Shown here: positions 8,722-47,262 of the stretch, piece after piece
How the letters are laid out: each line of letters begins with the position of its first letter
Position numbering within the stretch: position 1 is the first letter of the stretch
Origin: Streptomyces sp. NBC_00582
GTDB taxonomy: Bacteria > Actinomycetota > Actinomycetes > Streptomycetales > Streptomycetaceae
Assembly: GCF_036345155.1 (NCBI RefSeq)
Contig: NZ_CP107772.1
Coordinates: forward strand, 7,874,001-7,938,000
DNA length: 64,000 bases
Direction of reading: 5' to 3'
The notes under the pieces: model-generated
The model's input: the letters and a program-made list of their open reading frames with translations, nothing else
Databases searched by the model: none
Told to the model about the DNA's origin: nothing
Position numbers and translations under genes: made by a program

Positions 8722-10047
8722 TCACAGACCCGGGATCCGGCCGTTGCGGAAGAGGTCGACGAAGATCTGGTGGTCGGCCCGCGCGCGTGCGCCGTAGCTG
8801 TGCGCGAAGTCCACCAGGAGCGGCGCGAAGCCCTCCTCGTCGGCGGCGATGGCGGCGTCGATGGCCCGCTCGGTGGAGAACGGCACCAGGGACTCGCCCG
8901 AGGTGTCGTCGGCCGCCGCGTGCATGGTGGCGGTGGCCCGGCCGAGGTCGGCGACGACACCCGCGATCTCCTCCGGGTCGTCGATGTCGCCCCAGTCCAG
9001 GTCGACGGCGTACGGGGAGACCTCGGCGACGAGCTGACCCGCGCCGCCCAGCTCGGTCCAGCCCAGCCACGGGTCGGCGTGCTGCTGAAGGGCGCGCTGG
9101 GAGATCACCGTGCGGTGGCCCTCGTGCTGGAAGTAGTCACGGATCGCCGGGTCGGTGATGTGCCGGGAGACGGCCGGGGTCTGGGCCTGCTTGATGTAGA
9201 TCACGACGTCGTTCTCCAGGGCGTCGCTGTGCCCCTCCAGCAGGATGTTGTACGACGGCAGGCCCGCGGAGCCGATGCCGATGCCGCGGCGGCCCACGAC
9301 GTCCTTCACCCGGTAGGAGTCCGGGCGGGCCAGGGAGGTCTCCGGCAGCGTCTCCAGATAGCCGTCGAAGGCCGCGAGGACCTTGTAGCGGGTGGCCGCG
9401 TCCAGCTCGATGGAGCCGCCGCCGGGCGCGAAACGGCGCTCGAAGTCACGGATCTCCGTCATGGAGTCCAGCAGGCCGAAGCGGGTCAGCGAGCGGGCGT
9501 CGCGCAGGGCGTCCAGGAGCGGGCCCTCGGCGGTGTCCAGGGTGAACGGCGGCACCTCGTCGCTCTTGGCGCCGGTCGCCAGCGCGCGCATCCGCTCGCG
9601 GTACGCGCCCGCGTACACCCGGACCAGCTCGGTGATCTGGTCGTCGCCGAGCGCCTTGGCGTACCCGATGAGGGCGATCGAGGCGGAGAAGCGCTTGAGG
9701 TCCCAGGTGAAAGGGCCGACGTAGGCCTCGTCGAAGTCGTTGACGTTGAAGATCAGCCGGCCGGTGGAGTCCATGTAGGTGCCGAAGTTCTCCGCGTGCA
9801 GATCGCCGTGGATCCACACGCGCGAGGTGCGGTCGTCCAGGAACGGGCCGCCCCGCTTCTCCGCGTCCAGATCGTGGTAGAACAGCGCGGCCGTGCCCCG
9901 GTAGAACGCGAACGCAGAGGCCGCCATCTTGCGGAACTTCACCCGGAACGCGGCCGGGTCGGCGGCCAGGAGCTCGCCGAAGGCGGTGTCGAAGACGGAG
10001 AGGATCTCCTCGCCGCGCTGCTCGTCGTTGAGCTGGGGAACCGACAT
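8722..10047 (-). CDS. DUF2252 domain protein (kinase-like fold)
   Basis: A 441-residue protein of the DUF2252 family, which is distantly related to aminoglycoside phosphotransferase/protein-kinase folds. The kinase-like catalytic loop is visible as HGDLHAENFG (residues 80-89), and the metal-binding Asp region is NVNDFDEA (about 101-108). No substrate is known for the family. I start at the ATG at 10047 (MSVPQLNDEQ) because GGAGG lies about 9 bases upstream; the open frame to 10101 has no such site. It is divergent from dnaE with about 170 bases between them. Confidence 0.87.
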   Translation of the reverse strand: MSVPQLNDEQRGEEILSVFDTAFGELLAADPAAFRVKFRKMAASAFAFYRGTAALFYHDLDAEKRGGPFLDDRTSRVWIHGDLHAENFGTYMDSTGRLIFNVNDFDEAYVGPFTWDLKRFSASIALIGYAKALGDDQITELVRVYAGAYRERMRALATGAKSDEVPPFTLDTAEGPLLDALRDARSLTRFGLLDSMTEIRDFERRFAPGGGSIELDAATRYKVLAAFDGYLETLPETSLARPDSYRVKDVVGRRGIGIGSAGLPSYNILLEGHSDALENDVVIYIKQAQTPAVSRHITDPAIRDYFQHEGHRTVISQRALQQHADPWLGWTELGGAGQLVAEVSPYAVDLDWGDIDDPEEIAGVVADLGRATATMHAAADDTSGESLVPFSTERAIDAAIAADEEGFAPLLVDFAHSYGARARADHQIFVDLFRNGRIPGL

Positions 10048-10148
10048 CGCTGGGTGCCTCCTGGTGCGGTACATGGACGACAGCGTCTCTGCCGACTCCA
10101 ACGCACGAAGGTACGCGGGAGTGCCCGGCCAGTGTCAGTCACGAGGCA

Positions 10149-10154
10149 TAGACT
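10149..10154 (+). promoter_or_regulatory. Candidate -10 box of dnaE
   Basis: TAGACT about 65 bases before the dnaE GTG would give a short leader that contains the GGAGG ribosome-binding site. No clear -35 box is seen. Confidence 0.3.
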
Positions 10155-10217
10155 TCGACGCTGACCCCCGGACTGTCCGCCCGCCAGTCGTCGAGTGTTT
10201 CCCTTGGAGGCCACGCC

Positions 10218-14013: not shown

Positions 14014-14228
14014 GGGGATCTGCCTCCTGCGGGGGATGTAGGGACCAGGGCCGCGACCAGATTCACATAGGCTGACATCAGGCGCATTTCGGATAATTAC
14101 CGTCCGTGACAGGGGTTCTCCGAGCGCATCGGCCCGAAACGCCACGCCGAAGATCGAGTTCGGGCCGTTAACCCCCGCACGGTCGGGCAGACTCGAAGGA
14201 AGCCCGAAGCAAACCTCCCGGGAAGAGG

Positions 14229-15458
14229 GTGAGTCGTGTGGACCGCTGCATCGTCCTGGTGGACGCCGGGTATCTGCTGGGGGCCGCCGCGAGCCTCCTC
14301 GCCGGAGAGCCCTCGCGGTCCCGTATCACCGTCGATCACTCCGCCCTCGTCCAGGGTCTGCGCGAACAGGCCGAGTCCGACACCGAGCGGCCCCTGCTGC
14401 GCATCTACTGGTTCGACGGCGCCCCCGACCGTGTCCCCCAGCCCGAACACCGCAGGCTGCGGGTGATGCCCCGGGTCACCGTCCGGCTGGGCGCCCTCAC
14501 CCGCAGCGACGGACGCTGGGCCCAGAAGGGCGTCGACGCCGCCATGCACGCCGAACTCACCGAGCTGGCCCGCAACCGCGCCTGCTCCGACGTCGTCCTC
14601 GTCACGGGCGACGGCGATCTGCTCCCCGGCATGATGGCCGCCAAGGAGCACGGCGTCGCCGTCCACCTGTGGGCCGTCCAGGCCGCCGACGGCGACTACA
14701 ACCAGTCCGAGGACCTCGTCGCCGAGGCCGACGAACGGCGCGTCCTGGACCGTACGTGGATCACCAAGGCCGTACGCGCCAAGGAGCTCGGCGGGGTGTG
14801 CGCGCCGCCGCCCGTGCCCCGGCCCGAGATCGCCGCGATCCTCTCCGCGCCGCTGCCCGACTCAGGCCTCGCCCCGGCCGCCGACCGCTCCGCGGAGGAA
14901 CCCGAACACGCGGGCGCCGACGCCGCCGACCGCGCCGGCACCCAGGAGCGGGTGCCCGCCACCAAGGGCGTCCCCACCCCCAAGGACCTGGCCGCGCTGC
15001 GCGCCCCCGGAGCCCACCCCGCCCCGCACCCCGCCACCGCGACCCTGCGCTGGTCCTCCGACCGGGGCTGGGTGGACCGCCCCGGGGTCGTCGCCGAGCC
15101 CGCCGAGGCCGCCTCCATGCCGACGCTGGCCCAGCTCACCACGGCCGAGCAGCGGTGGGCCGACCGCGAGGAGGACATCACCACCGTCGGCGGCGACCCG
15201 TACGAGGTGGGGCAGGTCTTCGCCCGCCGCTGGATGGGCCGCCTCGGCGACCAGAGCCATCTGCAGAAGCTGTCGGGCATGTACCCGCGGATCCCGCACC
15301 GCATCGACGGCGAGCTGCTGCGGTACGCGGCCCGTTTCGGACTGCTCGCCCACAAGGACGACCAGATCGACGAGCACGACCGCTACGCCATCCGGGCGGG
15401 CTTCTGGCGCGAGGTCGACGTCCGGACCGCCGCCGAGCACGCGCCCGCCGGGGACTGA
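14229..15458 (+). CDS. NYN-domain (PIN-like) protein
   Basis: A 409-residue protein whose first about 165 residues form a NYN/LabA-type PIN-like nuclease domain. Conserved acidic residues are in place: D12 (LVDAGY), D63 (YWFDGAPD), D103 (QKGVDAAM) and D128/D130 (VTGDGDLLP), a set that binds Mg2+ in nucleases of this fold. The middle (about 200-280) is Ala/Pro-rich and likely disordered. The C-terminal about 100 residues (GDPYEVGQVFARRWMGRL onward) are a compact, probably helical domain I do not recognise. The start is GTG 14229; GTG 14238 is also possible. RNA is the likely substrate, by family only. Confidence 0.82.
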   Translation: MSRVDRCIVLVDAGYLLGAAASLLAGEPSRSRITVDHSALVQGLREQAESDTERPLLRIYWFDGAPDRVPQPEHRRLRVMPRVTVRLGALTRSDGRWAQKGVDAAMHAELTELARNRACSDVVLVTGDGDLLPGMMAAKEHGVAVHLWAVQAADGDYNQSEDLVAEADERRVLDRTWITKAVRAKELGGVCAPPPVPRPEIAAILSAPLPDSGLAPAADRSAEEPEHAGADAADRAGTQERVPATKGVPTPKDLAALRAPGAHPAPHPATATLRWSSDRGWVDRPGVVAEPAEAASMPTLAQLTTAEQRWADREEDITTVGGDPYEVGQVFARRWMGRLGDQSHLQKLSGMYPRIPHRIDGELLRYAARFGLLAHKDDQIDEHDRYAIRAGFWREVDVRTAAEHAPAGD

Positions 15459-24846: not shown

Positions 24847-25436
24847 GCCGCGTAGGACGTATAGAGCGGACGACGAAGGAGACCTCGGTCCTCGTCGAGA
24901 TCAACCTCGACGGCACCGGCAAGGTCGATGTGTCGACCGGCGTCGGCTTCTACGACCACATGCTCGACCAGCTCGGCCGGCACGGTCTGTTCGACCTGAC
25001 GGTGAAGACCGACGGCGATCTGCACATCGACTCGCACCACACCATCGAGGACACCGCCCTCGCCCTCGGCGCCGCCTTCAAGCAGGCCCTCGGCGACAAG
25101 GTCGGCATCTACCGCTTCGGCAACTGCACGGTCCCGCTGGACGAGTCCCTCGCCCAGGTGACGGTGGACCTGAGCGGCCGCCCGTACCTCGTGCACACCG
25201 AGCCCGAGAACATGGCGCCGATGATCGGCGAGTACGACACCACGATGACCCGGCACATCCTGGAGTCCTTCGTCGCCCAGGCCCAGATCGCGCTGCACGT
25301 GCACGTGCCCTACGGGCGCAACGCCCACCACATCGTGGAGTGCCAGTTCAAGGCCCTCGCCCGGGCGCTGCGGTACGCGAGCGAGCGCGACCCGCGTGCG
25401 GCCGGCATCCTCCCCTCCACGAAGGGTGCGCTGTAA
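24843..25436 (+). CDS. hisB: Imidazoleglycerol-phosphate dehydratase
   Basis: A 197-residue monofunctional HisB (dehydratase only, without the phosphatase domain of enteric HisB). The two metal-binding His clusters are visible in [16 protein letters not shown] and [35 protein letters not shown] is the first signature. The ATG overlaps the hisC stop (ATGA). Histidinol-phosphate phosphatase must be supplied by another gene; none is evident in this window. Confidence 0.97.
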
Positions 25437-25440
25437 ATCC

Positions 25441-25605
25441 ATGAACGGTCTGTCGACCCTTCTGATCGTCGTCGGTCTGTTCCTGGCCGGCGGCATCTAC
25501 TCCTTCGTCAAGCAGGACATGCCGAAGAGCCTGGTCGTGCTGCTGTCGATCGGCGCCGGGATGTGTCTGGTCGCCGGTGTGATGAGGCTGGAGGTGTGGA
25601 GTTGA
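25441..25605 (+). CDS. 54-aa two-helix membrane protein within the his operon
   Basis: A very small hydrophobic protein with two predicted transmembrane helices ([19 protein letters not shown] and [19 protein letters not shown]) joined by the polar turn VKQDMPK. The ATG lies only 4 bases after the hisB stop, and its TGA overlaps the TTG/GTG start region of hisH, so it is expressed as part of the operon. No function is known to me. Its place inside a tight biosynthetic operon argues that it is a real gene rather than a spacer. Confidence 0.78.
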
Positions 25606-25610
25606 GCGCG

Positions 25611-26246
25611 GTGAGCAAGAAGGTCGTCGTCTTCGACTACGGCTTCGGCAACGTCCGCTCCGCCGAGCGCGCCCTCGCGCGCACCGGGGCCGAGGTCGAG
25701 ATCACCCGTGACTTCGACCGGGCCATGAACGCCGACGGGCTGCTGGTGCCCGGCGTCGGGGCCTTCGCCGCCTGTATGACGGGTCTGCGCGAGGCGCGCG
25801 GAGACTGGATCATCGACCGCCGGCTCTCCGGCGGACGCCCCGTGATGGGCATCTGCGTCGGCATGCAGATCCTGTTCGCCCGCGGCATCGAGCACGGCGT
25901 CGAGACCGAGGGCCTCGACGAGTGGCCCGGCGCGGTCGAGCCGCTCCAGGCCGAGATCGTGCCCCACATGGGCTGGAACACCGTGGACGCGCCCGCCGAC
26001 TCCGAGCTCTTCGCCGGCCTCGACGCGGACGCCCGCTTCTACTTCGTGCACTCCTACGCCGTCCACGACTGGTCCCTGGAGACCCACAACCAGGCCATGC
26101 ACGCGCCCCGGGTGACCTGGTCGACGCACGGCAAGCCGTTCGTGGCGGCCGTGGAGAACGGCGCCCTGTGGGCCACCCAGTTCCACCCCGAGAAGTCCGG
26201 CGACGCCGGAGCCCAGCTCCTCACCAACTGGATCGGAACCCTGTGA
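25611..26246 (+). CDS. hisH: Imidazole glycerol phosphate synthase, glutamine amidotransferase subunit
   Basis: The 211-residue class I glutaminase that feeds ammonia to HisF. The catalytic Cys is C82 in MGICVGMQ, and the His-Glu pair is in QFHPEKSG near the C-terminus. [16 protein letters not shown] is the N-terminal signature. Two starts are possible: GTG 25611, with GGAG 9 bases upstream (chosen), or TTG 25602, which would overlap the preceding stop as TTGA with GGAGG 7 bases upstream. The stop overlaps priA by four bases. Confidence 0.95.
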
Positions 26247-38797: not shown

Positions 38798-39634
38798 TCA
38801 GTCGCGGCGGGCCGCGAGGGACAGGGTGCGTTGGGCCGCCGACACCACCGCCGCGTCGATGAAGCGGCCGTCCGGGAGGGCCTGGGCGCCCTGTTCCGTC
38901 ACCGCCGCCTTGACGATCGTCTCGGCCTCGTCCAGTTCCTGCTCGGTGGGCAGGTAGGCGCGCTCGATGATGGGGAGCTGGCGCGGGTGGATCGCGGCGC
39001 GGCCCAGGAAGCCGAGGGCGCGGCCATGGGCGCAGGAGGCCGCGAGGCCGTTGAGGTCCCGGGTGTCGGGGTGGACGGACTGCGAGGGCGGGGCGAGGCC
39101 CGCGGCCCGGGCGGCGAGGACCACCCGGGAGCGGGACCAGTCGAGGCCCGCGTCGTCGCGGATGCCGAGGTCGGCGCGGAGGTCGGCCTCGCCGAGGGTG
39201 ATGCCCCGCAGGGCGGGGTGGGCGGAGGCGATGGCGTAGGCGTGTTCGATGCCGAGGGCGCTCTCCAGCAGGGCGTGCAGCGGGGGTGCGCCGCCCTCCG
39301 CGGGGGCGGTGGTCTCGGCGATCCGGGTGATCTGGTGCGGGGCCGTCACCTTGGGCAGCCGCAGTCCCGCGACGCCGGGCAGGGCGGCCACCGCCTGGAG
39401 GTCGGCGGAGGCCAGCGGCCCGTCGAGGGCGTTCACCCGGACGTGCACCGGGACCGGCTGGGGCTCGGAGAGGCGCTCGGCGGTGGCCTTGCGGGCGTAG
39501 GCCTTGCGGTCGGGGGCGACCGCGTCCTCCAGGTCGATGATCACGACGTCGGCGCCCGAGGCGAGGGCCTTGGTGACGGTGTGCGGACGGTCCCCGGGGG
39601 CGTACAGCCAGGTCAGGGGGAAGGGCGCGGTCAC
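38798..39634 (-). CDS. HpcH/HpaI aldolase/citrate lyase family protein (CitE-like CoA-ester lyase)
   Basis: A 278-residue beta/alpha barrel of the CitE/malyl-CoA lyase/HpcH family, which breaks or makes C-C bonds in acyl-CoA esters. LYAPGDRPHTVTKALASGADVVIIDLEDAVAPDRK is the N-terminal signature; the metal ligands are probably the Glu of LLESALGIEHAY and the Asp of GEADLRADLG. It is the last gene of the reverse-strand ADP-ribosylhydrolase operon; its GTG overlaps the CoA-transferase stop. Paired with the CoA-transferase, it could act on a CoA thioester of a dicarboxylic acid. The substrate is unknown. Confidence 0.9.
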   Translation of the reverse strand: MTAPFPLTWLYAPGDRPHTVTKALASGADVVIIDLEDAVAPDRKAYARKATAERLSEPQPVPVHVRVNALDGPLASADLQAVAALPGVAGLRLPKVTAPHQITRIAETTAPAEGGAPPLHALLESALGIEHAYAIASAHPALRGITLGEADLRADLGIRDDAGLDWSRSRVVLAARAAGLAPPSQSVHPDTRDLNGLAASCAHGRALGFLGRAAIHPRQLPIIERAYLPTEQELDEAETIVKAAVTEQGAQALPDGRFIDAAVVSAAQRTLSLAARRD

Positions 39635-40830
39635 AGGGCGCCCTCCTCGCGCAGGGCGGAGAGCTCGGCGGCGGTCAGGCCCAGCTCGGTGAGGACCTCG
39701 TCGGTGTCGGCGCCGTGCGGGCGGCCGGTCCAGCGGATCGCGCCGGGGGTCGCCGAGAGCCGGAAGAGGACGTTCTGCATACGGATCCGGCCGAGCTCCG
39801 GGTCGTCGACGGCGGTGACCGTGCCGAGGGCCTGGTACTGGGGGTCGTCCAGCACGTCCCGTACGTCCTGGACGGGGGCGACGGCGGCCTCCGCCTTCTC
39901 GAAGGCGGCAAGGACCTCGGTGCGGGAGCGGGCCGCGATCCAGCTGCCTACCGCCTGGTCGAGGACGTCGGCGTGCGCGGCCCGGTCGGCGCCCGTCGCG
40001 AACCACGGTTCGTCGATCAGCTCGGGGCGGCCGACCAGGCGCATCACCCGTTCCGCGATCGACTGGGCCGAGGTGGAGACGGCGACCCAGGTGCCGTCGG
40101 CCGTGCGATAGGTGTTGCGCGGGGCGTTGTTGGCGGAGCGGTTGCCGGTGCGCTTCTGGACGTATCCCAGTTGGTCGTACCAGAGGGCCTGCGGACCGAG
40201 GACCGCCAGCATCGGCTCGATGATCGCCATGTCCACGACCTGCCCCTCGCCGGTGCGTTCGCGGGCGGCGAGGGCGGTCATGACGGCGTAGGCCGTGGCC
40301 AGGGCGGTGATGGAGTCGGCGAGACCGAAGGGCGGGAGCGTCGGTGGCGCGTCCGGCTCCCCGGTGATCGCGGCGAAGCCGCTCATCGCCTCGGCGAGGG
40401 TGCCGAAGCCGGGGCGGTGGGCGTACGGCCCGAACTGACCGAAGGCGGTGACCCGGGTCAGCACCAGCCGGGGGTTGGCGGCGGAGAGCTCCTCCCAGCC
40501 GAGGTCCCATTTCTCCAGGGTGCCGGGGCGGAAGTTCTCGATGATCACATCGGCGCCGGCGGCGAGCCGCAGGAGGGTGGCGCGGCCGCCCGGGGTGGAG
40601 AGGTTCAGCGTGATCGTGCGCTTGTTGCGGCCGAGGAGCTTCCACCACAGGCCGATGCCGTCCTTGGCCGGGCCGTGGCCCCGGGACGGGTCCGGTTTCG
40701 TGGGGTGCTCGACCTTGACGACCTCCGCGCCGAAGTCGCCGAGCAGGGTGGCGGCGAGGGGGCCGGCGAACAGGGTGGCGAGGTCGAGGACGCGGAGACC
40801 GTGCAGCGGGGTGGTGGTGGGCCCGGTCAT
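39631..40830 (-). CDS. CaiB/BaiF family (class III) CoA-transferase
   Basis: A 399-residue CoA-transferase that moves CoA between carboxylic acids. LRVLDLATLFAGPLAATLLGDFGAEVVKVEHP is the N-terminal nucleotide-binding signature, and the catalytic Asp is expected in GEGQVVDMAIIEP. The length matches the family. I start at the ATG at 40830, which overlaps the sugar-kinase stop (ATGA); the open frame to 40923 is a shadow. With the CitE-like lyase next to it, it forms a probable organic-acid CoA module at the end of the operon. Substrates are not predictable. Confidence 0.92.
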   Translation of the reverse strand: MTGPTTTPLHGLRVLDLATLFAGPLAATLLGDFGAEVVKVEHPTKPDPSRGHGPAKDGIGLWWKLLGRNKRTITLNLSTPGGRATLLRLAAGADVIIENFRPGTLEKWDLGWEELSAANPRLVLTRVTAFGQFGPYAHRPGFGTLAEAMSGFAAITGEPDAPPTLPPFGLADSITALATAYAVMTALAARERTGEGQVVDMAIIEPMLAVLGPQALWYDQLGYVQKRTGNRSANNAPRNTYRTADGTWVAVSTSAQSIAERVMRLVGRPELIDEPWFATGADRAAHADVLDQAVGSWIAARSRTEVLAAFEKAEAAVAPVQDVRDVLDDPQYQALGTVTAVDDPELGRIRMQNVLFRLSATPGAIRWTGRPHGADTDEVLTELGLTAAELSALREEGAL

Positions 40831-41720
40831 GAGGCGTACTGCTTCTCGATCTCGGAGCGGTACGGCATCGAGGCGGAGGCACCCGGGCGCTGGACCGACA
40901 GCGCGGCCGCCGTGGCCGCCCACGCCAGGGCCTCCCGCACGGGGCGTTCCTCGCCGAGGGCCACCGCGAGGGCGCCGACGAAGGTGTCGCCGGCGCCGGT
41001 GGAGTCCACGGCGGTGACCTGCGGGGCGGGGACGGTGAGCGGGTCGGCGCCGCGGGCCGCGTGGAGGCTGCCGGCCGCGCCGAGCGTGATCACGACCTCG
41101 GGGACGACTTCCAGGAGCGCGGCGGCCGCCTCGTGGGGGTCGGTGCGGCCGGTGAGCGTCGTGGCCTCGTGCTCGTTCGGCACCAGCAGGTCGACGGCGG
41201 CGAGGAGTTCGGGCGGCAGCGGCTGGGCGGGGGCCGGGGTGAGGATCGTACGGACCCCGTGGGCGCGGGCCGCGCGGGCGCCCGCGACGACGGCGGGCAG
41301 CGGGATCTCCAACTGCAGGAGGAGCGCGTCGGCGGAGGCGATCAGGCCCGCGTCGCCGGGCACGAGATGGTCGAGGGTGCCGTTGGCGCCGGGGACGACG
41401 ACGATCGCGTTGCCGCCCTCGTCGTCCACGACGATGTGCGCGGTGCCGGAGGGGAACTCGACCGTGCGCAGATGGTCGGTGTTGACGCCGGAGTGCTCCA
41501 GGGTGGAGCGCAGACGGGCGCCGAAGGAGTCGTTGCCGACCGCGCCGATCATGGAGACGGTGCCTCCGGCGTGTGCGGCTGCGATCGCCTGGTTGGCGCC
41601 CTTGCCGCCGGGGATCGTACGGAACTCCCGTCCCGTCACGGTCTCCCCGCGCTGCGGGGCCTTCTCGACGTAGGCGACGAGGTCCATGTTCGTGCTGCCG
41701 AGCACGACGATGTCGGTCAT
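40827..41720 (-). CDS. rbsK: Ribokinase (PfkB family)
   Basis: A 297-residue PfkB-family sugar kinase closest in features to ribokinase. VVLGSTNMDLVAYVEKAPQRGETVTG and the GGKGANQAIAAAHAG signature are at the N-terminus, and the anion hole and catalytic Asp are in DSTGAGDTFVGALAVAL near the C-terminus. It would phosphorylate D-ribose, or a related sugar such as deoxyribose, at O5. Position inside an operon of four ADP-ribosylglycohydrolases suggests it handles ribose derived from ADP-ribose, though this needs a separate step to free ribose. The ATG overlaps the preceding stop. Confidence 0.88.
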   Translation of the reverse strand: MTDIVVLGSTNMDLVAYVEKAPQRGETVTGREFRTIPGGKGANQAIAAAHAGGTVSMIGAVGNDSFGARLRSTLEHSGVNTDHLRTVEFPSGTAHIVVDDEGGNAIVVVPGANGTLDHLVPGDAGLIASADALLLQLEIPLPAVVAGARAARAHGVRTILTPAPAQPLPPELLAAVDLLVPNEHEATTLTGRTDPHEAAAALLEVVPEVVITLGAAGSLHAARGADPLTVPAPQVTAVDSTGAGDTFVGALAVALGEERPVREALAWAATAAALSVQRPGASASMPYRSEIEKQYAS

Positions 41721-43093
41721 GGGCGGGATGCCTCCCGGTGGGTGAGGGACCAGGTGAGGTGGGCGAGGGTGTCGAAGCCGGTGCCGTCGAAGCCGGCGAC
41801 GGAGGTGGCGAGTCGGTTCTTGAGGGGGGCCGTCCAGGGGGCGGGGAGGGCGGCGGGGTCGCCGGCGAGGAGGCCGGCGACGCTGCCCGCCGTCGCGCCG
41901 TTGGAGTCCGTGTCCCAGCCGCCGGACACCGCGCGGCAGATGGAGCCGGTGAAGTCGCCGTTCGCGTGGGTGAGCGCCGCGGCGATCAGGGCGGTGTTGG
42001 GGATCGCGTGGACCCAGTGCAGGTCCTTGTGGGTGGTGTGGAGTTCGTCCACGACCGTGTCGAAGTCGGTGTGCGTATGGGCGAGTTGGATCGCGTGGGT
42101 GACGGCCTTCGTGAGGCGGGAGCGGGGTGGGATCACCGTGAGGCCGGTGCGCAGGCAGCTGTGGATGTCGTGCTCGCCGGTCGCGGCCGTCGCGATGGTG
42201 GCCGCGGTGAACATCGCCGCGTAGACGCCGTTGGCGGTGTGGGTGAGGGTGGCGTCGCGATGGGCCTGTTCCGCGGCCGCTTCGGGGGCGCCGGGGTGGG
42301 TCCAGCCGTGGACGTCGGCGCGGATGAGGGCGCCGATCCATTCGCGGAAGGGGTTGCGGTGGCGGGCGGTGTGCGGGGGTTCGATGCCGGAGAGGAGGTT
42401 GCGGAAGGCGAGGCGTTCGGCGGTGAAGGTGCGGCCGGGGGGGAGCTCGTCGAGCCAGAGTCTCGCCACGTCGGTGGTGGTGAAGGCGGTGCCGTGGCGT
42501 TGGAGCAGAAGGAGGTTGAGGAGGGGGTAGTTGAGGTCGTCGTCCTCGGGCATGCCGTCGATGTTCTCGGCGAGGGAGGTGGTCGCCGAGCGGCGGTTCC
42601 AGGGGTGGTCGGTGAGGAGGCTCTCGGGGACGCCTCGGGCGGTGAAGTAGGTGGTGAGGGGCCAGTTGCCGGTGGATCTGGCGAGTTGGCGGATGGCGTC
42701 GAGGGGGAGTTTCTCCACCGGTTTGCCCAGGAGGCAGCCGACTGCTCTGCCGAGCCAGGCGGCTTCGAGGGCGGCCGGGGTGGGGGCGGGCCGGGGGTGG
42801 GTTTCACTGGCCCGCGCTTGCGGGGTGCCGCTGCGGATGAGTTCCAGGTCCGTGGGTTCGTCCTCTGCCAGCCTGCTGGGCAGGTCGGCGAGTTCGTCCA
42901 GCAGGTCCTCTGCCAGTTGCCGCAGATAACGGGAGGCGCGTTGGCTGGACGCTCCCGCTCCGGCCGGGGCCTCCGGGCCGCCTGCCGCTCGCCAGCGGGC
43001 TGCGATGGCCCAGGGTTCGCGGCCGTCCTCGGCGGCCTGGCGGAGTTCGTGGCCGAGGAGGTCTTCCGGTTGGACCCAGGTCAGGCGGAGCAT
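41717..43093 (-). CDS. ADP-ribosylglycohydrolase family protein (paralogue 1, extended N-terminus)
   Basis: A 458-residue member of the ADP-ribosylglycohydrolase (ARH/DraG) family. The first about 105 residues, which begin MLRLTWVQPEDLLGHELRQ, are an extra helical domain not found in the other copies. The catalytic core starts at AAWLGRAVGCLLGKPVEKL, where the usual VGDALG Asp is replaced by Cys. Acidic residues are present in MPEDDDLNYPLL, and the C-terminal metal motif is intact and strong: GGWDTDSNGATAGSVAG. Divergent N-terminal and normal C-terminal motifs suggest an altered substrate. It overlaps its upstream neighbour by 13 bases and the kinase by 4. Confidence 0.88.
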   Translation of the reverse strand: MLRLTWVQPEDLLGHELRQAAEDGREPWAIAARWRAAGGPEAPAGAGASSQRASRYLRQLAEDLLDELADLPSRLAEDEPTDLELIRSGTPQARASETHPRPAPTPAALEAAWLGRAVGCLLGKPVEKLPLDAIRQLARSTGNWPLTTYFTARGVPESLLTDHPWNRRSATTSLAENIDGMPEDDDLNYPLLNLLLLQRHGTAFTTTDVARLWLDELPPGRTFTAERLAFRNLLSGIEPPHTARHRNPFREWIGALIRADVHGWTHPGAPEAAAEQAHRDATLTHTANGVYAAMFTAATIATAATGEHDIHSCLRTGLTVIPPRSRLTKAVTHAIQLAHTHTDFDTVVDELHTTHKDLHWVHAIPNTALIAAALTHANGDFTGSICRAVSGGWDTDSNGATAGSVAGLLAGDPAALPAPWTAPLKNRLATSVAGFDGTGFDTLAHLTWSLTHREASRP

Positions 43094-44268
43094 CCCGGGC
43101 CTCCGAGCAGGGTGGTGAAGGCCGTCTCGTGGGAGCGGCGTGCCTGGGCGTCCTTCTCGAAGATCTCGCGGGTGACGCGGGCCAGGGTGCGGGGCGGTTC
43201 CCAGAGGTCCAGGCGGCTCGCCTCCGCGACCTGCTTCGACCAGTCCTCGGGGACGGGGGAGCCGAGGGCGCCCGTGATCGCGCCGGCCATCGTGGCGATC
43301 GAGTCGCAGTCCCGGCCGTAGTTCACCGCGCCGAGGACCGCGTGCCGGTAGTCGCCGTCGGACACGAGCAACATGCCCAGGGCGATCGGGAGTTCCTCGA
43401 TCGCGTGCAGGCGGGAGGGGCGGCGGGCGGCCAGGGAGGGTCTGCGGTAGTCGGGGCCCACCGTGTCGTACGGGGCCACCGCCTCGCGCAGCGGGAGCAG
43501 CGCCGACTCGAAGTCCCGGTGCCGGGACGCCTCTTCGCAGACCTTCTCGATCGCGGTGCGGGTGCCGTCCTTCGCCAGGGACAGACAGGTGGTCACGACC
43601 GAGTCGGGGGTCGCGTCCGGGGCGCAGGCCGCCGCCACCGCCGCCGCGAAGACGCCCGCCGCCTCACGGCCGTACGAGGACGAGTGGGCGCCCGCGATGT
43701 CCAGGGCCTCGGCGTACGCCCCCGCCGGGTGGGCCGCGTTGACCAGGCCGACCGGGGCCATGTACATCGCCGCGCCGCAGTTGACGATGTTGCCGGTGCC
43801 GGCCTCCCGGGGGTCCACATGGCCGTAGTGGAGCCGGGTCACCAGCCATTTCTCCGCCAGGAAGAGCCGGTGCAGGGGGAGGGCCTCGGTCTCCAGCTCC
43901 GGGATCCAGCGGGGGTTCGTCATCAGGTCCGGAACCAGGTGGTCGGTGATCGCGTACGCGTCCAGGTGGTCGCGGACCCGGTCGTAGACCCTGATCAGCG
44001 CGTGGGTCATCAAGGTGTCGTCGGTGACGTGTCCGTCGCCCTTGTGGTACGGCGCGATCGGGCGGGCGGTGCGCCAGGCGTCGCCGTTCCAGGGGCCCAC
44101 GATGCCGTGGACGCGGCCGCCGTGGCGTTCCGCGATCTGGGCGGGAGAGTAGCCCTCGACGGGGCCGCCCAGGGCGTCGCCGACCGCCGCGCCGACGAGG
44201 GCCCCGGTGATCCGGTCGTCCAGGGTGTTTTCTTGCTCTTTTACGCTTTCTGATTCTTTGGGCGTCAT
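43081..44268 (-). CDS. ADP-ribosylglycohydrolase family protein (paralogue 2, complete motifs)
   Basis: A 395-residue ARH/DraG-type hydrolase with all expected metal-binding motifs: GALVGAAVGDALGGPVEG at the start, VTDDTLMTHALIRVYD, and VNYGRDCDSIATMAGAITGALG. It should remove ADP-ribose from a protein, nucleic acid or small molecule. The N-terminal codons (MTPKESESVKEQENTL) are strikingly A-rich for this genome. I use ATG 44268; ATG 44280 would overlap the upstream stop as ATGA but is directly joined to the GGAGG site, which is too close. The open frame upstream is a shadow. Confidence 0.9.
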   Translation of the reverse strand: MTPKESESVKEQENTLDDRITGALVGAAVGDALGGPVEGYSPAQIAERHGGRVHGIVGPWNGDAWRTARPIAPYHKGDGHVTDDTLMTHALIRVYDRVRDHLDAYAITDHLVPDLMTNPRWIPELETEALPLHRLFLAEKWLVTRLHYGHVDPREAGTGNIVNCGAAMYMAPVGLVNAAHPAGAYAEALDIAGAHSSSYGREAAGVFAAAVAAACAPDATPDSVVTTCLSLAKDGTRTAIEKVCEEASRHRDFESALLPLREAVAPYDTVGPDYRRPSLAARRPSRLHAIEELPIALGMLLVSDGDYRHAVLGAVNYGRDCDSIATMAGAITGALGSPVPEDWSKQVAEASRLDLWEPPRTLARVTREIFEKDAQARRSHETAFTTLLGGPGCSA

Positions 44269-44276
44269 GCCCCGAA

Positions 44277-45935
44277 TCATCCTCCTGGTGGCGCCGGTTG
44301 CGTGGCTTCCAGGAGTTCGGCGAGTTCCACCAGGTCGGTGCCGGTGAGGCGGGGGAGTGCGCAGCCGGAGAGGACACGGCAGGCGTCGCGCCAGGAGGCG
44401 GGGATCGCGTCCTTGCCGCCGAGCGCGCCCGCCAGCGCGCCCGCGAGCGCCGGGGCCGAGTCGGCGACCCGGGACAGGCAGGCCGCCGCCGGTACGGCTT
44501 CCTGGAGACGGCCCTCGGCTGCGCTGACCAGGGCCAGGGCAACCGGGACCGTCTCGGCGGCCGCGATGCCGTAGCTGTAGACGTGGTCGACGATCTGGTG
44601 TTCCAGGAGGGGGATCAGGGTGAAGGCGCTGCCCGCGTCGTGGGCGAGTCGCAGCGCGTGGCGGGCGTTGCGGCCGATCTCGGTGTGTTCCGGGAGTTCG
44701 GCGAGGGCCGCGGTGGTGCAGGCCTCGGGGGGTGCGCCGGTCAGGGCGAGGGAGACGGCCGCCGCCATCGCACGGGCGCCGTGCACGCCGTCGCCGTCCT
44801 GGGTGTAGCGGGCGTCGAACTCGGCCAGTTCGGCGGCGAGTCGGGGGTCGCCGGGGTGGGCGACCGCGAGGACGCATGCGCGGACGCACGCGGCGTCGTC
44901 GAAGTAGTGCGGGTTGTCGTGGCCGGTGGCGGGGGGTCGTAGGCCGGTCGCGAGGTTGCCGAGGCCGGCGCGGACGGAGATGCGGGCGCGCAGGGGGAGG
45001 ACGGCGGACTCGATCTCGGGGGCGCGGTCGGCCGCCGCCGCGATCTCGCAGGCGAGGGCGTTCCAGGTGAGGTCGATGGCGGCGCGCATACGGCGTTCTC
45101 GGCTGAGGTCGCCGAGGGCGGTGTCGTCTCCGGCCCTGAGGACCGCTTCCGCCGCGAAGGCCGCCCATTCGGCGTCGTCGGAGGGGCCGAGGCGGAGCGG
45201 TTCGGGGGGCTGGTTCAGGGCGATGGGGACGGGGAGGGTGGTCGTGGCGTTGTGTTCGGCGAAGGTGTCCAGTTCGCGGGTGAGACGGCGGGTCCAGTCG
45301 GGCATGCGGGAGGCGCGGTGGCGGGCGGCGGGCCAGCCGGCGGCGTCGCCTGCGGCGAGGCCGAGGAGGAGGCCGTGGACGCGGGCCTCGGCTTCGCCCT
45401 CGGCCCGCGGTTTCCCACCCGCACCACCCGTGCGGGTCTCGTCGTCGGGTGCGGGTGGCCCCAGGGGGGCGCCCCCACCGTCGGCGACCGCGAGTCCGCC
45501 CGGCTCCGCCGCTCCCCCTTCGTCCGCCATAGCCGTCCCGGCAGACGCCCCCTCGTCCCGCGTGCCCGTGCCGGCAGGCACCCCCTCGTCCCGCGTGCCC
45601 GTCCCCGACGGCATTTCCTTGTCCGCTGTCCCGGCGTCCGGCGGCATTTCCTCGTCCGCCGTCGTCGTCCCCGGCGGCACCCCCCCGTCCCCCGTCCCCG
45701 CCTCCGATGGCGCTTCCTCGTCCCGCGTCCCCGCCCCCGGCGGCATTTCCTTGTCCGCTGTCCCGGCCTGCGACGGCGCTTCCTCGTCCGGCGTGCCCGG
45801 CGGCACCCCCTCGTCCCCCGTCCCCGCCTCCGACGGCACTCCCCCGTCCCGCGTCGCCGCCCCCGGCGGCACCCCCTCGTCCACCGCTGCCGTCCCCGAC
45901 GGCTCCCCCTCGTCCCATGGGCCTGGTGGTTTCAT
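44277..45935 (-). CDS. ADP-ribosylglycohydrolase-like protein (paralogue 3, repeat-rich N-terminus, degenerate site)
   Basis: A 552-residue protein. Residues 8-137 are about twelve copies of an 11-residue unit of the form DEGVPPGAGTR, then a Gly/Pro linker, and only from about 175 (RVHGLLLGLAAGDAAGWPAARH) comes the hydrolase core. The TDDT motif is changed to PSDDAEW, and the C-terminal RDADT to RVADS, so at least one metal ligand is lost. It may be inactive, a binding protein, or act differently. The ATG at 45935 has GGAGG upstream and overlaps the preceding stop (ATGA). Confidence 0.82.
   Translation of the reverse strand: MKPPGPWDEGEPSGTAAVDEGVPPGAATRDGGVPSEAGTGDEGVPPGTPDEEAPSQAGTADKEMPPGAGTRDEEAPSEAGTGDGGVPPGTTTADEEMPPDAGTADKEMPSGTGTRDEGVPAGTGTRDEGASAGTAMADEGGAAEPGGLAVADGGGAPLGPPAPDDETRTGGAGGKPRAEGEAEARVHGLLLGLAAGDAAGWPAARHRASRMPDWTRRLTRELDTFAEHNATTTLPVPIALNQPPEPLRLGPSDDAEWAAFAAEAVLRAGDDTALGDLSRERRMRAAIDLTWNALACEIAAAADRAPEIESAVLPLRARISVRAGLGNLATGLRPPATGHDNPHYFDDAACVRACVLAVAHPGDPRLAAELAEFDARYTQDGDGVHGARAMAAAVSLALTGAPPEACTTAALAELPEHTEIGRNARHALRLAHDAGSAFTLIPLLEHQIVDHVYSYGIAAAETVPVALALVSAAEGRLQEAVPAAACLSRVADSAPALAGALAGALGGKDAIPASWRDACRVLSGCALPRLTGTDLVELAELLEATQPAPPGG
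45525..45914 (-). repeat. 33-bp minisatellite encoding 11-residue repeats
   Basis: Twelve consecutive in-frame units, each beginning with Asp, all 33 bp except one of 27 bp. Typical units are DEGVPPGAATR, DEEAPSEAGTG and DKEMPSGTGTR. The coding strand is G-rich and the + strand C-rich. Confidence 0.85.
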
Positions 45936-46978
45936 GCCGGTACCTCCGGGTGGGTGGTGCGGTGGACGTGGTGGAGGAGGTCCGTGAGGGATTCCGGGGG
46001 GACCAGGCCCTCGCCCCATTTGCCGCCGTCGTCCGGGACCAGGAGTTCCGCCACGTCGAGGATGTGGTGGCCGGCCATGGAGGGCAGGCAGGTGCCGCGG
46101 GCGGGGCCGATCGCCGCCGCCCAGGTGGTCGGGACGGCCGCGACGCCCTGGGTGGCGCCGGCGAGGGCGCCCGCCACCGCCGCCGTGGTGTCGGCGTCGC
46201 GCCCCATGTTGACGGCCGTGAGGACCGCCTCCGGGAAGTCGCCGTCCGCCGCCGCGTACGCGCCGAAGGCGAGGGCGACGGCCTCGGGGGCGAGGTCGGT
46301 CCAGGGGTAGCCGCCGATCACGACGGCGGAGCGGACCGCGCGTTCTCCCCGGTGCGCGACGGCCACCGCGCGGCGCAGGGAGCGGGCCGTCCAGGAGTCC
46401 TCGGGGACGACCGCGAGGGCGGCGGCGACCACCGCGGTCGTCGGCGCGCCCGCCATCGCCGCCGCCACGCCGGCCGCGACCGCCTGACCGCCGTAGATGC
46501 CCTCGCCGTCGTGGCTCACCGCGCCGTCGATGGCGACCAGCCGGGCCGCCTCCGCCGGGCGGCCCGCCGCGAAGACACCGAACGGCGCCGCGCGCATGGC
46601 CAGTCCGTCGCTCCAGGCGTGGCGGTGCTGGGCGGAGATCGGGGCCGCCAGACCCCGGCGGAGGTTCTCCAGCGTGCCGCGCTCGCTGAAGCCGGCGCCC
46701 CGGAAGGGGCCCTCGTCGCGGTCGGCGATCCACTCGTGCCAGGCGGCCTCGACATGCGCCTGGGTGAGGGCCGAGCCGTGCCGGGCGAGGAGCAGGCCGG
46801 AGAAGATCGTGTACTCCGTGTCGTCCGTCCCGGCCGGCCGGTCGGTGACGTACCCGGTGATGCGGCCCCACCGCGCGCGGATCTCCGACGGTTTCATGTT
46901 CTCGGCCGGTGCCCCGAGGGCGTCTCCGACGGCGAGGCCGAGCAGGGCGCCGCGGGCTCGTTCACGGATGGTTGGCAT
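45932..46978 (-). CDS. ADP-ribosylglycohydrolase family protein (paralogue 4, operon leader)
   Basis: A 348-residue ARH/DraG-type hydrolase with complete motifs: RGALLGLAVGDALGAPAE, GTDDTEYTIFSGLLLARHG and VNMGRDADTTAAVAGALAGATQG. It is compact, with no extra domains. I start at ATG 46978 (MPTIRERARGALLG), which has GAGAGG about 6 bases upstream; the frame is open to 47041. It is the first gene of the seven-gene reverse-strand operon. Its substrate could be an ADP-ribosylated protein, as with DraG on nitrogenase reductase, or O-acetyl-ADP-ribose. Confidence 0.9.
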   Translation of the reverse strand: MPTIRERARGALLGLAVGDALGAPAENMKPSEIRARWGRITGYVTDRPAGTDDTEYTIFSGLLLARHGSALTQAHVEAAWHEWIADRDEGPFRGAGFSERGTLENLRRGLAAPISAQHRHAWSDGLAMRAAPFGVFAAGRPAEAARLVAIDGAVSHDGEGIYGGQAVAAGVAAAMAGAPTTAVVAAALAVVPEDSWTARSLRRAVAVAHRGERAVRSAVVIGGYPWTDLAPEAVALAFGAYAAADGDFPEAVLTAVNMGRDADTTAAVAGALAGATQGVAAVPTTWAAAIGPARGTCLPSMAGHHILDVAELLVPDDGGKWGEGLVPPESLTDLLHHVHRTTHPEVPA

Positions 46979-47131
46979 ACGGGGCCTCTCCTCCGCAGGC
47001 TCCGCACGGACGCGGAACCGTTTGCGGATGTGTCCCACCATCGGCGGTTGACCCGAGCCTGGAATCCCCTCATATCACCCGGTCGACATTTGTGCGCACT
47101 CCCGATCGAATGAGCGCTCGGATGTGAAAGC

Positions 47132-47150
47132 GCAGGTTAGCCGAGCCTTT
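47132..47150. promoter_or_regulatory. Weak iron-box-like site
   Basis: GCAGGTTAGCCGAGCCTTT matches the Streptomyces DmdR/IdeR consensus TTAGGTTAGGCTCACCTAA at about 12 of 19 positions, mostly in the left half. It lies between the divergent transporter and hydrolase operons. Confidence 0.35.
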
Positions 47151-47200
47151 CCTTGCTGGCGAGAGGGAAGAATGAGACGTACTTTGGCGTTGTCGGAAAT

Positions 47201-47206
47201 TAGAAT
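47201..47206 (+). promoter_or_regulatory. Candidate -10 box of the VIT1-family gene
   Basis: TAGAAT in an AT-rich stretch, about 57 bases before the ATG and just upstream of the stronger iron box, where a bound repressor would block transcription. Confidence 0.4.
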
Positions 47207-47216
47207 CAATCCAAAG

Positions 47217-47235
47217 TTAGCTTTGGCTCACCTAT
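47217..47235. promoter_or_regulatory. Iron box (DmdR/IdeR-type operator) upstream of the VIT1-family gene
   Basis: TTAGCTTTGGCTCACCTAT matches the known Streptomyces iron-box consensus at 16 of 19 positions. It begins 11 bases after the candidate -10 box and ends 27 bases before the start codon. Confidence 0.65.
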
Positions 47236-47262
47236 CCTGGCTCATCTTCCCGGGGGACTTCC

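Follow-up and report, generated by a model that had tools for sequence, protein, structure and literature searches.

The nearest organisation described so far to the locus analysed here appears, by analogy, to be yegTUV of Escherichia coli, in which a transporter, a protein of the ADP-ribosylglycohydrolase (ARH) family and a sugar kinase are encoded on one transcript under one regulator, YegW/GgaR, and which has been tied to glycogen through ADP-glucose (PMC10819704). Our locus is a predicted operon of seven uninterrupted open reading frames (ORFs), all on the reverse strand, at positions 38798-46978 of a 64,000-nucleotide stretch of Streptomyces sp. NBC_00582 (contig NZ_CP107772.1, positions 7,874,001 to 7,938,000; this whole stretch is the window in what follows), encoding four ARHs (ARH1 to ARH4), a ribokinase (RK), a CoA-transferase (CoAT) and a CitE-like lyase. 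The yegTUV locus differs in having a single ARH, no CoA genes, a nucleoside-type transporter of the major facilitator superfamily instead of the ATP-binding cassette (ABC) importer found in relatives of our operon, and a GntR-type instead of a LacI-type regulator (PMC10819704). We suggest, with somewhat more confidence than doubt, that the operon encodes the cytoplasmic steps in the catabolism of a ribosylated compound.

A second likeness, ribose scavenging with ribokinases and hydrolases, is presumably offered by the Bacteroides rus loci, some of which we take to contain ARH genes; these loci differ in using SusCD import and nucleoside hydrolases. A ribokinase/TonB/SusD/nucleoside-hydrolase locus beginning at BT2804 appears in a published table (PMC10434189). 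Four ARH genes with consecutive locus tags, as in the window, are found in Streptomyces coelicolor (SCO2028-SCO2031); judged from locus-tag position alone they are presumably the orthologues of ARH1 to ARH4, with SCO2028 corresponding to ARH1. In two surveys they are listed as uncharacterised DraG-like proteins (SCO2028-2030 in 2016, SCO2028-2031 in 2022; PMC5087735, PMC9411070), and SCO2028 and SCO2030 have been purified and had no activity on U-alpha-ADPr (PMC13036486); an operon, the kinase, the CoA genes and a link to an importer are not mentioned in the available portions of these accounts. Enrichment of ADP_ribosyl_GH in root-surface Verrucomicrobia has been explained as protein modification (PMC7251102). 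Open-licence literature searched by title and the start of the abstract, a corpus outside which most journals fall, contained no account of the operon or of ARHs as riboside catabolic enzymes.

In the direction of transcription, the operon begins with ARH1 (45932-46978; 348 residues), a DraG-like protein with a complete Mg motif (E, TDDT, DADT), followed by the non-canonical ARH2 (44277-45935; 552 residues) with conserved motifs of its own, ARH3 (43081-44268; 395 residues), again with a complete Mg motif (E, TDDT, DCDS), and ARH4 (41717-43093; 458 residues), which belongs to a separate subfamily marked by GKPVE, EDDDLNY, EWIGALIR and GWDTDSNG. These are followed by RK (40827-41720; 297 residues), a dispensable member of the operon, a class III CoAT of the CaiB/BaiF type (39631-40830; 399 residues) and a CitE/RipC-like CoA-ester C-C lyase of the HpcH/HpaI family (38798-39634; 278 residues; GTG start). 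Overlaps of 4 bases join ARH1 to ARH2, ARH4 to RK, RK to CoAT and CoAT to CitE; ARH3 and ARH4 overlap by 13 bases and 8 bases separate ARH2 from ARH3, a spacing that suggests co-transcription of all seven genes. The first-pass annotation of the window had described this layout exactly, and its assignment of the four differently sized proteins to the ARH/DraG family is borne out by matches of ARH1 to ARH4 to PF03747 (202, 128, 161 and 173 bits; cut-off 26.2), which place all four in the superfamily; ten PF03747 genes occur in the genome. PfkB (230 bits), CoA_transf_3 (418 bits) and HpcH_HpaI (126 bits) are likewise matched far above their cut-offs. RK passes the ribokinase model TIGR02152 (314.2 bits; cut-off 299.65) and falls below a second one, NF008353 (269 versus 341 bits). 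The DraG equivalog model TIGR02662 lies well above the scores of ARH1 and ARH3 (77.5 and 43.1 bits versus 337) and gave no match for ARH2 or ARH4.

Conservation of the operon across Streptomyces, which the first-pass annotation had proposed to look at, is high. Genes of relatives were identified from tblastn hits and longest ORFs, and a gene is called absent here when the fetched stretch gave no hit at E<=1e-6 to 1e-10. A search of 61 genomes of the genus with ARH4 gave a match at E<=1e-20 in 47: an orthologue (E<=1.1e-100) in 42, a 78% fragment at a contig end in one (G032) and only a paralogue of about 45% identity in four. Stretches were fetched around 40 of the orthologues, leaving out that of the window itself and that of G046. 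The full order ARH1-ARH2-ARH3-ARH4-RK-CoAT-CitE on one strand is found in 32 of these 40 loci and the same order without RK in six more, so that the arrangement is not due to chance; ARH1 to ARH4 are in order in 38 of 40, and all 38 have CoAT and CitE. In 14 further named Streptomyces loci, taken from the ranked ARH4 scan described below (Streptomyces sp. PsTaAH-137, which occurs as both L095 and L185, is counted once, among the 40), CoAT-CitE adjoins ARH4 or RK without exception. These comparisons support the earlier proposal that the genes behave as one unit. G010 (L106) lacks ARH2 and RK and has an interrupted ARH4, and in G012 the operon is broken over three places (L105, with only ARH4-RK, L120 and L265); the G012 pieces, ARH1 by VIT, ARH4-RK, and CitE-CoAT by lgt, lie as if separated by large rearrangements. 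More widely in Actinomycetota, 10 of 396 genomes carry the ARH2 marker, each belonging to the genus of the window; ARH4 was found in 12 of 296 genomes, of which four are from other families.

In a number of relatives the ARH genes adjoin an importer. A GTDB scan with the ARH4 subfamily gave 571 loci, and of the best 80, 44 were from outside Streptomyces. Because these 44 are the top of a list ranked by similarity to a non-Streptomyces ARH4, and eight of them form one close group (Nonomuraea/Thermoactinospora), the following fractions are not natural frequencies: within 8 kb of ARH4, sugar-type permeases are found in 22 of 44, a ribokinase in 18, a second ARH in 20, and permease and kinase together in 14. 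The same queries gave 0 permeases, 0 kinases and 0 ARHs in 20 control stretches around CoAT orthologues (3.3 to 19 kb, not trimmed to 8 kb, with a LacI-type hit of 36% in L301), and no LacI, permease, binding protein or kinase hit at six other ARH loci of the window's genome.

The order LacI-permease A-permease B-binding protein-ARH1-ARH2-ARH3-ARH4-RK is found in eight Nonomuraea/Thermoactinospora loci (L152, L154, L160, L162, L163, L171, L196 and L197; a ninth, L151, is cut by the contig), with no CoAT or CitE in the fetched stretches. Microbacterium elymi (L183) combines all modules in the order CoAT-CitE-LacI-permease-permease-binding protein-ARH3-ARH4-ARH1-ARH2-RK. Two permeases and a binding protein followed by ARHs also occur in metagenome-assembled genomes (MAGs) of Bacillota, KSB1, Melioribacteraceae and Neomarinimicrobiota (L148, L150, L156, L169), the ARHs of the first three (the Bacillota MAG with LacI in addition) being ordered ARH1-ARH2-ARH4-ARH1-like. 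Two Paraglaciecola genomes have an FGE-domain protein, CoAT, ARH4, CitE, RK and ARH3, and in one of them, L155, a TonB receptor, an SSF transporter and a LysR protein were also identified; the Paraglaciecola and Nonomuraea kinases pass TIGR02152 as the window's does. ARH4 relatives extend to several phyla, including Bathyarchaeota MAGs. A protein of about 720 residues recurs beside the marine ARH4/RK clusters (L155, where it has an FGE-sulfatase domain, L159, L169 and L189), accompanied in L169 by two esterase-like genes, and on the small contig L110 nucleoside-hydrolase-like and amidohydrolase-like ORFs, recognised by eye, lie beside an ARH4 relative. The Chloroflexi/Dehalococcoidales neighbourhoods of ARH4 (L131, L132) were considered as a guide to the substrate and are uninformative.

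Within Streptomyces, LacI, two permeases and a binding protein stand directly before ARH1 in four of the 40 loci (L090, L093, L095 and L104), and Streptomyces sp. CB02923 (L164) has LacI alone at the gap to VIT1. In PsTaAH-137 the importer lies between VIT and ARH1, at the very site that the operon occupies in the window, and L090, L093 and L104 have neither VIT nor lgt within the stretch. In a FastTree phylogeny of the four ARHs, read for topology only, the four importer loci and L164 cluster together beside all other Streptomyces, and the importer-bearing Nonomuraea fall outside. The simplest reading is that an ancestral importer was lost in the larger Streptomyces group; alternatively, it may have been acquired later. 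The best family match of the regulator is RbsR (193 bits; cut-off 382), the permeases resemble the UgpA/MalF and GlcU/MalG types and the binding protein oligosaccharide types, all below cut-off, and the importer is of the CUT1 type. Across these loci the ARH set is the core, and the kinase, the CoA genes and the importer are modules.

Given that the ARHs of relatives adjoin an importer, and that permeases and RK accompany ARH4 at the frequencies given above and at none of the 20 control loci, the operon of the window resembles a reduced system for riboside import and breakdown more than one for protein de-ADP-ribosylation. The candidate substrate class would be a ribofuranoside conjugate or a ribose-containing oligosaccharide. 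In the fuller form of the system, an RbsR-like LacI repressor would control the sugar-type ABC importer; the ARH-fold proteins, acting as metal-dependent glycosidases (ARH1, ARH3 and ARH4, together with the non-canonical ARH2) that may differ in specificity for the linkage or the aglycone, would release ribose in the cytoplasm; and a ribokinase, the operon's own or one encoded elsewhere, would convert it to ribose 5-phosphate. In Streptomyces and Microbacterium, CoAT and the CitE/RipC-like lyase would act on a carboxylic-acid portion of the aglycone, activating it and splitting it to an acyl-CoA and a 2-oxo acid. The lineage of the window has neither regulator nor importer at the locus, and there the substrate would arrive by another transporter or be made inside the cell. 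The first-pass annotation had offered two routes, release of ADP-ribose from several kinds of target, with recovery of ribose and use of an acyl or acetyl group, or catabolism of an ADP-ribosylated compound. Breakdown of a ribosylated compound in which the ribose is recovered fits the comparisons, since related operons include a sugar-type ABC importer and, in many cases, an RbsR-like LacI protein; release of ADP-ribose from several targets finds no support in them.

Several observations weigh against this proposal. The importer is missing from 36 of the 40 Streptomyces loci; in the window no LacI and no importer lie beside the enzymes as in a LacI-regulated sugar ABC operon, and no protein of the genome closely resembles the binding protein of the cassette (32% identity at best), so that import is not shown for this genome itself. 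Such permeases are also lacking near ARH4 in 22 of the 44 listed non-Streptomyces loci, some of which are short contigs. RK is missing from six of the 38 intact loci and from 10 of the 14 named Streptomyces loci. The check set by the first-pass annotation, whether the hydrolases regularly occur without the kinase and CoA genes, thus comes out mixed: in Streptomyces CoAT and CitE always accompany the intact ARH set and RK does so only in part, and in the eight complete Nonomuraea/Thermoactinospora cassettes RK is kept and the CoA genes are not in the stretch. The CoA genes in turn occur apart from ARHs: in 20 CoAT stretches, 19 of them from other genera, there was no ARH hit, and CitE adjoins CoAT in 13. 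Every CoAT and CitE family model also stays below its cut-off, including those for citramalate, malate and hydroxymethylglutarate as substrates. The pair of a CaiB/BaiF CoA-transferase beside a CitE-type lyase is shared with RipC/citramalyl-CoA lyase, and we assign no specificity to CoAT and CitE because their scores are far below the respective thresholds (CitE-like lyase 150 bits versus 375 for RipC, NF038242; CoAT 246 bits versus 750 for SucGlutTfs). Finally, the sequences are compatible with ADP-ribosyl substrates, since ARH1 and ARH3 keep all classical catalytic residues.

This last point leads to the first alternative, in which the ARHs strip ADP-ribose from proteins, nucleic acids or small molecules, with the kinase and the CoA genes serving to recycle what is released. 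We regard it as unlikely. Beyond the PF03747 membership of all four proteins and the listing of SCO2028-2031 as DraG/ARH homologues in two surveys (PMC5087735, PMC9411070), it draws on active sites that resemble those of characterised ARHs: Rhodospirillum rubrum DraG and human ARH1 and ARH3 share the fold, and window ARH1 and ARH3 have their E...TDDT...DxD[S/T] residues, whereas ARH2 lacks key residues and ARH4 has EDDD for TDDT. ARHs bind Mg according to the rule E...[T/S]DDT...D[S/T]D[S/T], activity being lost when any one of the metal ligands tested is replaced, and pyrophosphate is bound by a Gly and a His that are buried (PMC6309922). In Streptomyces ARH1 all three Mg sites are present in 51 of 51 sequences, and in ARH3 each is present in 52 of 53 (one being a fragment or a broken frame). 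In ARH4 the Glu is present in 54 of 55 sequences, with one gap; all 55 carry [E/A]DDD at the [T/S]DDT site, and DTDS appears in 53 of 54 rows shown, again with one gap. The Gly and His, at positions that we infer from the alignments, are kept in ARH1, ARH3 and ARH4 in the Streptomyces rows shown; some rows of ARH1 from outside Streptomyces, a group that wrongly includes L120 of G012, have Gln, Gly or Ala in place of His.

ARH2 is different. In 51 of 51 Streptomyces sequences the catalytic Glu and one metal Asp are missing, the other two metal sites read SDDA and xxADS, and Ala stands for the phosphate-binding Gly and Gln for the His; among 13 sequences from elsewhere (one partial) the first Asp of the third motif is absent in all and TDDT is present in three. 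Nevertheless, four motifs of ARH2 are invariant in the 51 Streptomyces sequences, and its own conserved stretches include WTRR..RE.D, LNQP and GHDNPHYFDD. Such invariance without the classical residues suggests that ARH2 may work through other residues, or as a partner. AlphaFold models of the ARH2 domain (residues 183-552; pLDDT 84.5) and of ARH4 (pLDDT 92.5) have ARH3, MJ1187 and DraG structures as best PDB matches at modest TM-scores (target-normalised up to 0.72 and 0.78, respectively, among the matches listed), with one other protein, 8xks chain Q, in the top 50; ARH4 has no sequence relative in the PDB at E<=0.01. The Pfam match places the start of the ARH2 domain near residue 188, and much of the preceding part, a low-complexity tail, is encoded by a tandem repeat of 33/66/132 bp at 45515-45916 on the reverse strand. 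Across the Streptomyces loci measured, between 8 and 430 codons separate the ARH1 stop from the core of ARH2, the meaningless negative value of L088 having been dropped.

Against the release of ADP-ribose from several kinds of target, as the first-pass annotation had it, speak the lack of metal and phosphate residues in ARH2, the absence of an ADP-ribosyltransferase among the 17 window proteins scanned with Pfam, and the importer and RbsR-like regulator of relatives. Hydrolysis of ADP-ribose yields ribose 5-phosphate, not ribose, so that a ribokinase would have no job. The inactivity of SCO2028 and SCO2030 on U-alpha-ADPr (PMC13036486) points in the same direction.

Alternatively, the operon may join two unrelated modules, ARHs and RK for ribosides and CoAT and CitE for an unrelated hydroxy acid; this view, which is compatible with riboside catabolism, we also consider unlikely. 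Of 396 Actinomycetota genomes, 39 have CoAT orthologues (E<=1e-115), 11 of these genomes being from the genus of the window and 28 from other genera, and the ARH-free stretches around such orthologues, like the Nonomuraea cassettes without CoA genes nearby, are what two modules would predict. Pfam analysis of ten CoAT neighbours identified amidohydrolases, an amidase, a PF04199 cyclase, MmgE/PrpD and transporters. An ARH-free CoAT-CitE cluster recurs in L297, L300, L301, L302, L311 and L312, with cyclase-, MmgE/PrpD-, amidohydrolase- and IclR-like ORFs recognised by eye, and is perhaps another undescribed catabolic pathway. In contrast, CoAT and CitE are retained in all 38 intact Streptomyces operons, even where RK has been lost; the CoATs of the Streptomyces and Microbacterium ARH operons form one clade (support 0.917); and the Paraglaciecola ARH/RK cluster has a different CoAT and CitE, both phylogenetically separate. 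ARH clusters seem to have gained the pair on at least two occasions, an argument for a carboxylic-acid portion of the substrate. A paralogue of ARH4 of about 45% identity lies within about 7 kb of a CitE-like hit in L116, L118, L119, L124, L125 and L126.

In a third alternative, which strikes us as more doubtful still, the operon serves to turn over or detoxify a ribosylated metabolite that the cell itself produces; relatives would use their importer to salvage the same compound, and the internal source would have taken over in most Streptomyces. Consistent with it, 34 of the 36 Streptomyces loci without importer keep four ARHs, and the locus sits between the core genes lgt and VIT1/gltBD. In the window, lgt (with dsbA-like and trp genes beyond) flanks the operon on one side and divergent VIT1, followed by gltBD-like genes, on the other, and VIT and/or lgt lie within the stretch in 36 of the 40 loci. 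The gap from ARH1 to VIT1 (46979-47262) is the site of the importer or regulator in relatives; at 47217-47235, upstream of VIT1, it contains an iron-box-like sequence with three mismatches to the DmdR/IdeR consensus, for which there were 0 matches in 100 shuffles. The same site argues for a dispensable trait. We searched for lgt in 20 genomes in which ARH4 is absent (14), represented by the paralogue only (four), or partial or displaced (two), found it in 18 and fetched 17 stretches. In 12 of the 17, VIT directly adjoins lgt with nothing between (the genome-wide search of these 12 genomes covered ARH4), so that genomes mostly either have the whole operon here or lack it altogether. In G023 (L253) only a cassette-type binding protein and two permeases, without ARHs, lie between lgt and VIT; L265 (G012) holds CitE-CoAT, L256 and L263 are too short to tell, and L250 (G017) ends in CitE, the operon therefore probably being cut by the assembly. 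A sugar-type importer and regulator in relatives also fit an internal source poorly.

Other candidates were rejected: anti-phage defence (PADLOC-DB, 0 hits for 7/7 proteins at E<=0.001), a mobile element (no plasmid match by megablast, and VIT and/or lgt at most loci), nitrogen control via DraG beside gltBD (ARH1 scores below the cut-off of the DraG equivalog, and position is all that connects the two) and use of O-acetyl-ADP-ribose, which the first-pass annotation had entertained and for which the operon has no sirtuin. A Sir2-like ORF lies a few kb from the paralogue of ARH4 of about 45% identity in two genomes of the genus (L116 and L123; read from the translation), L116 being in the window's own genome (C1, about 2.304 Mb), with the two ORFs at 9097-10176 and 14155-14940. 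Elsewhere in the window, at 25417-26063, ARAGORN calls a tmRNA over ORFs of high GC3, which is probably false.

Catabolism of a riboside, the reading that we prefer for the operon itself, can be extended to the family, and this we propose only tentatively. The ARH fold may constitute a carbohydrate-active ribofuranosidase family in many bacteria, in which an import pathway with up to four ARH paralogues, including ARH2, would dismantle a ribosylated acid common in soil and sea, feed Actinomycetota, Bacillota and Gammaproteobacteria, and have been joined at least twice independently to CoA-transferase/CitE-lyase chemistry. Inventories of reversible ADP-ribosylation in Streptomyces include these genes among putative protein hydrolases. 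If they encode riboside catabolic enzymes, the census of ADP-ribosylation would change, and a new class of sugar hydrolase and an environmental ribose compound would become testable. ARH2, strictly conserved without the classical catalytic residues, is a question of its own. The importer-bearing strains provide a direct handle, in that the real substrate or its product should be a ligand of their binding protein and their RbsR-like repressor.

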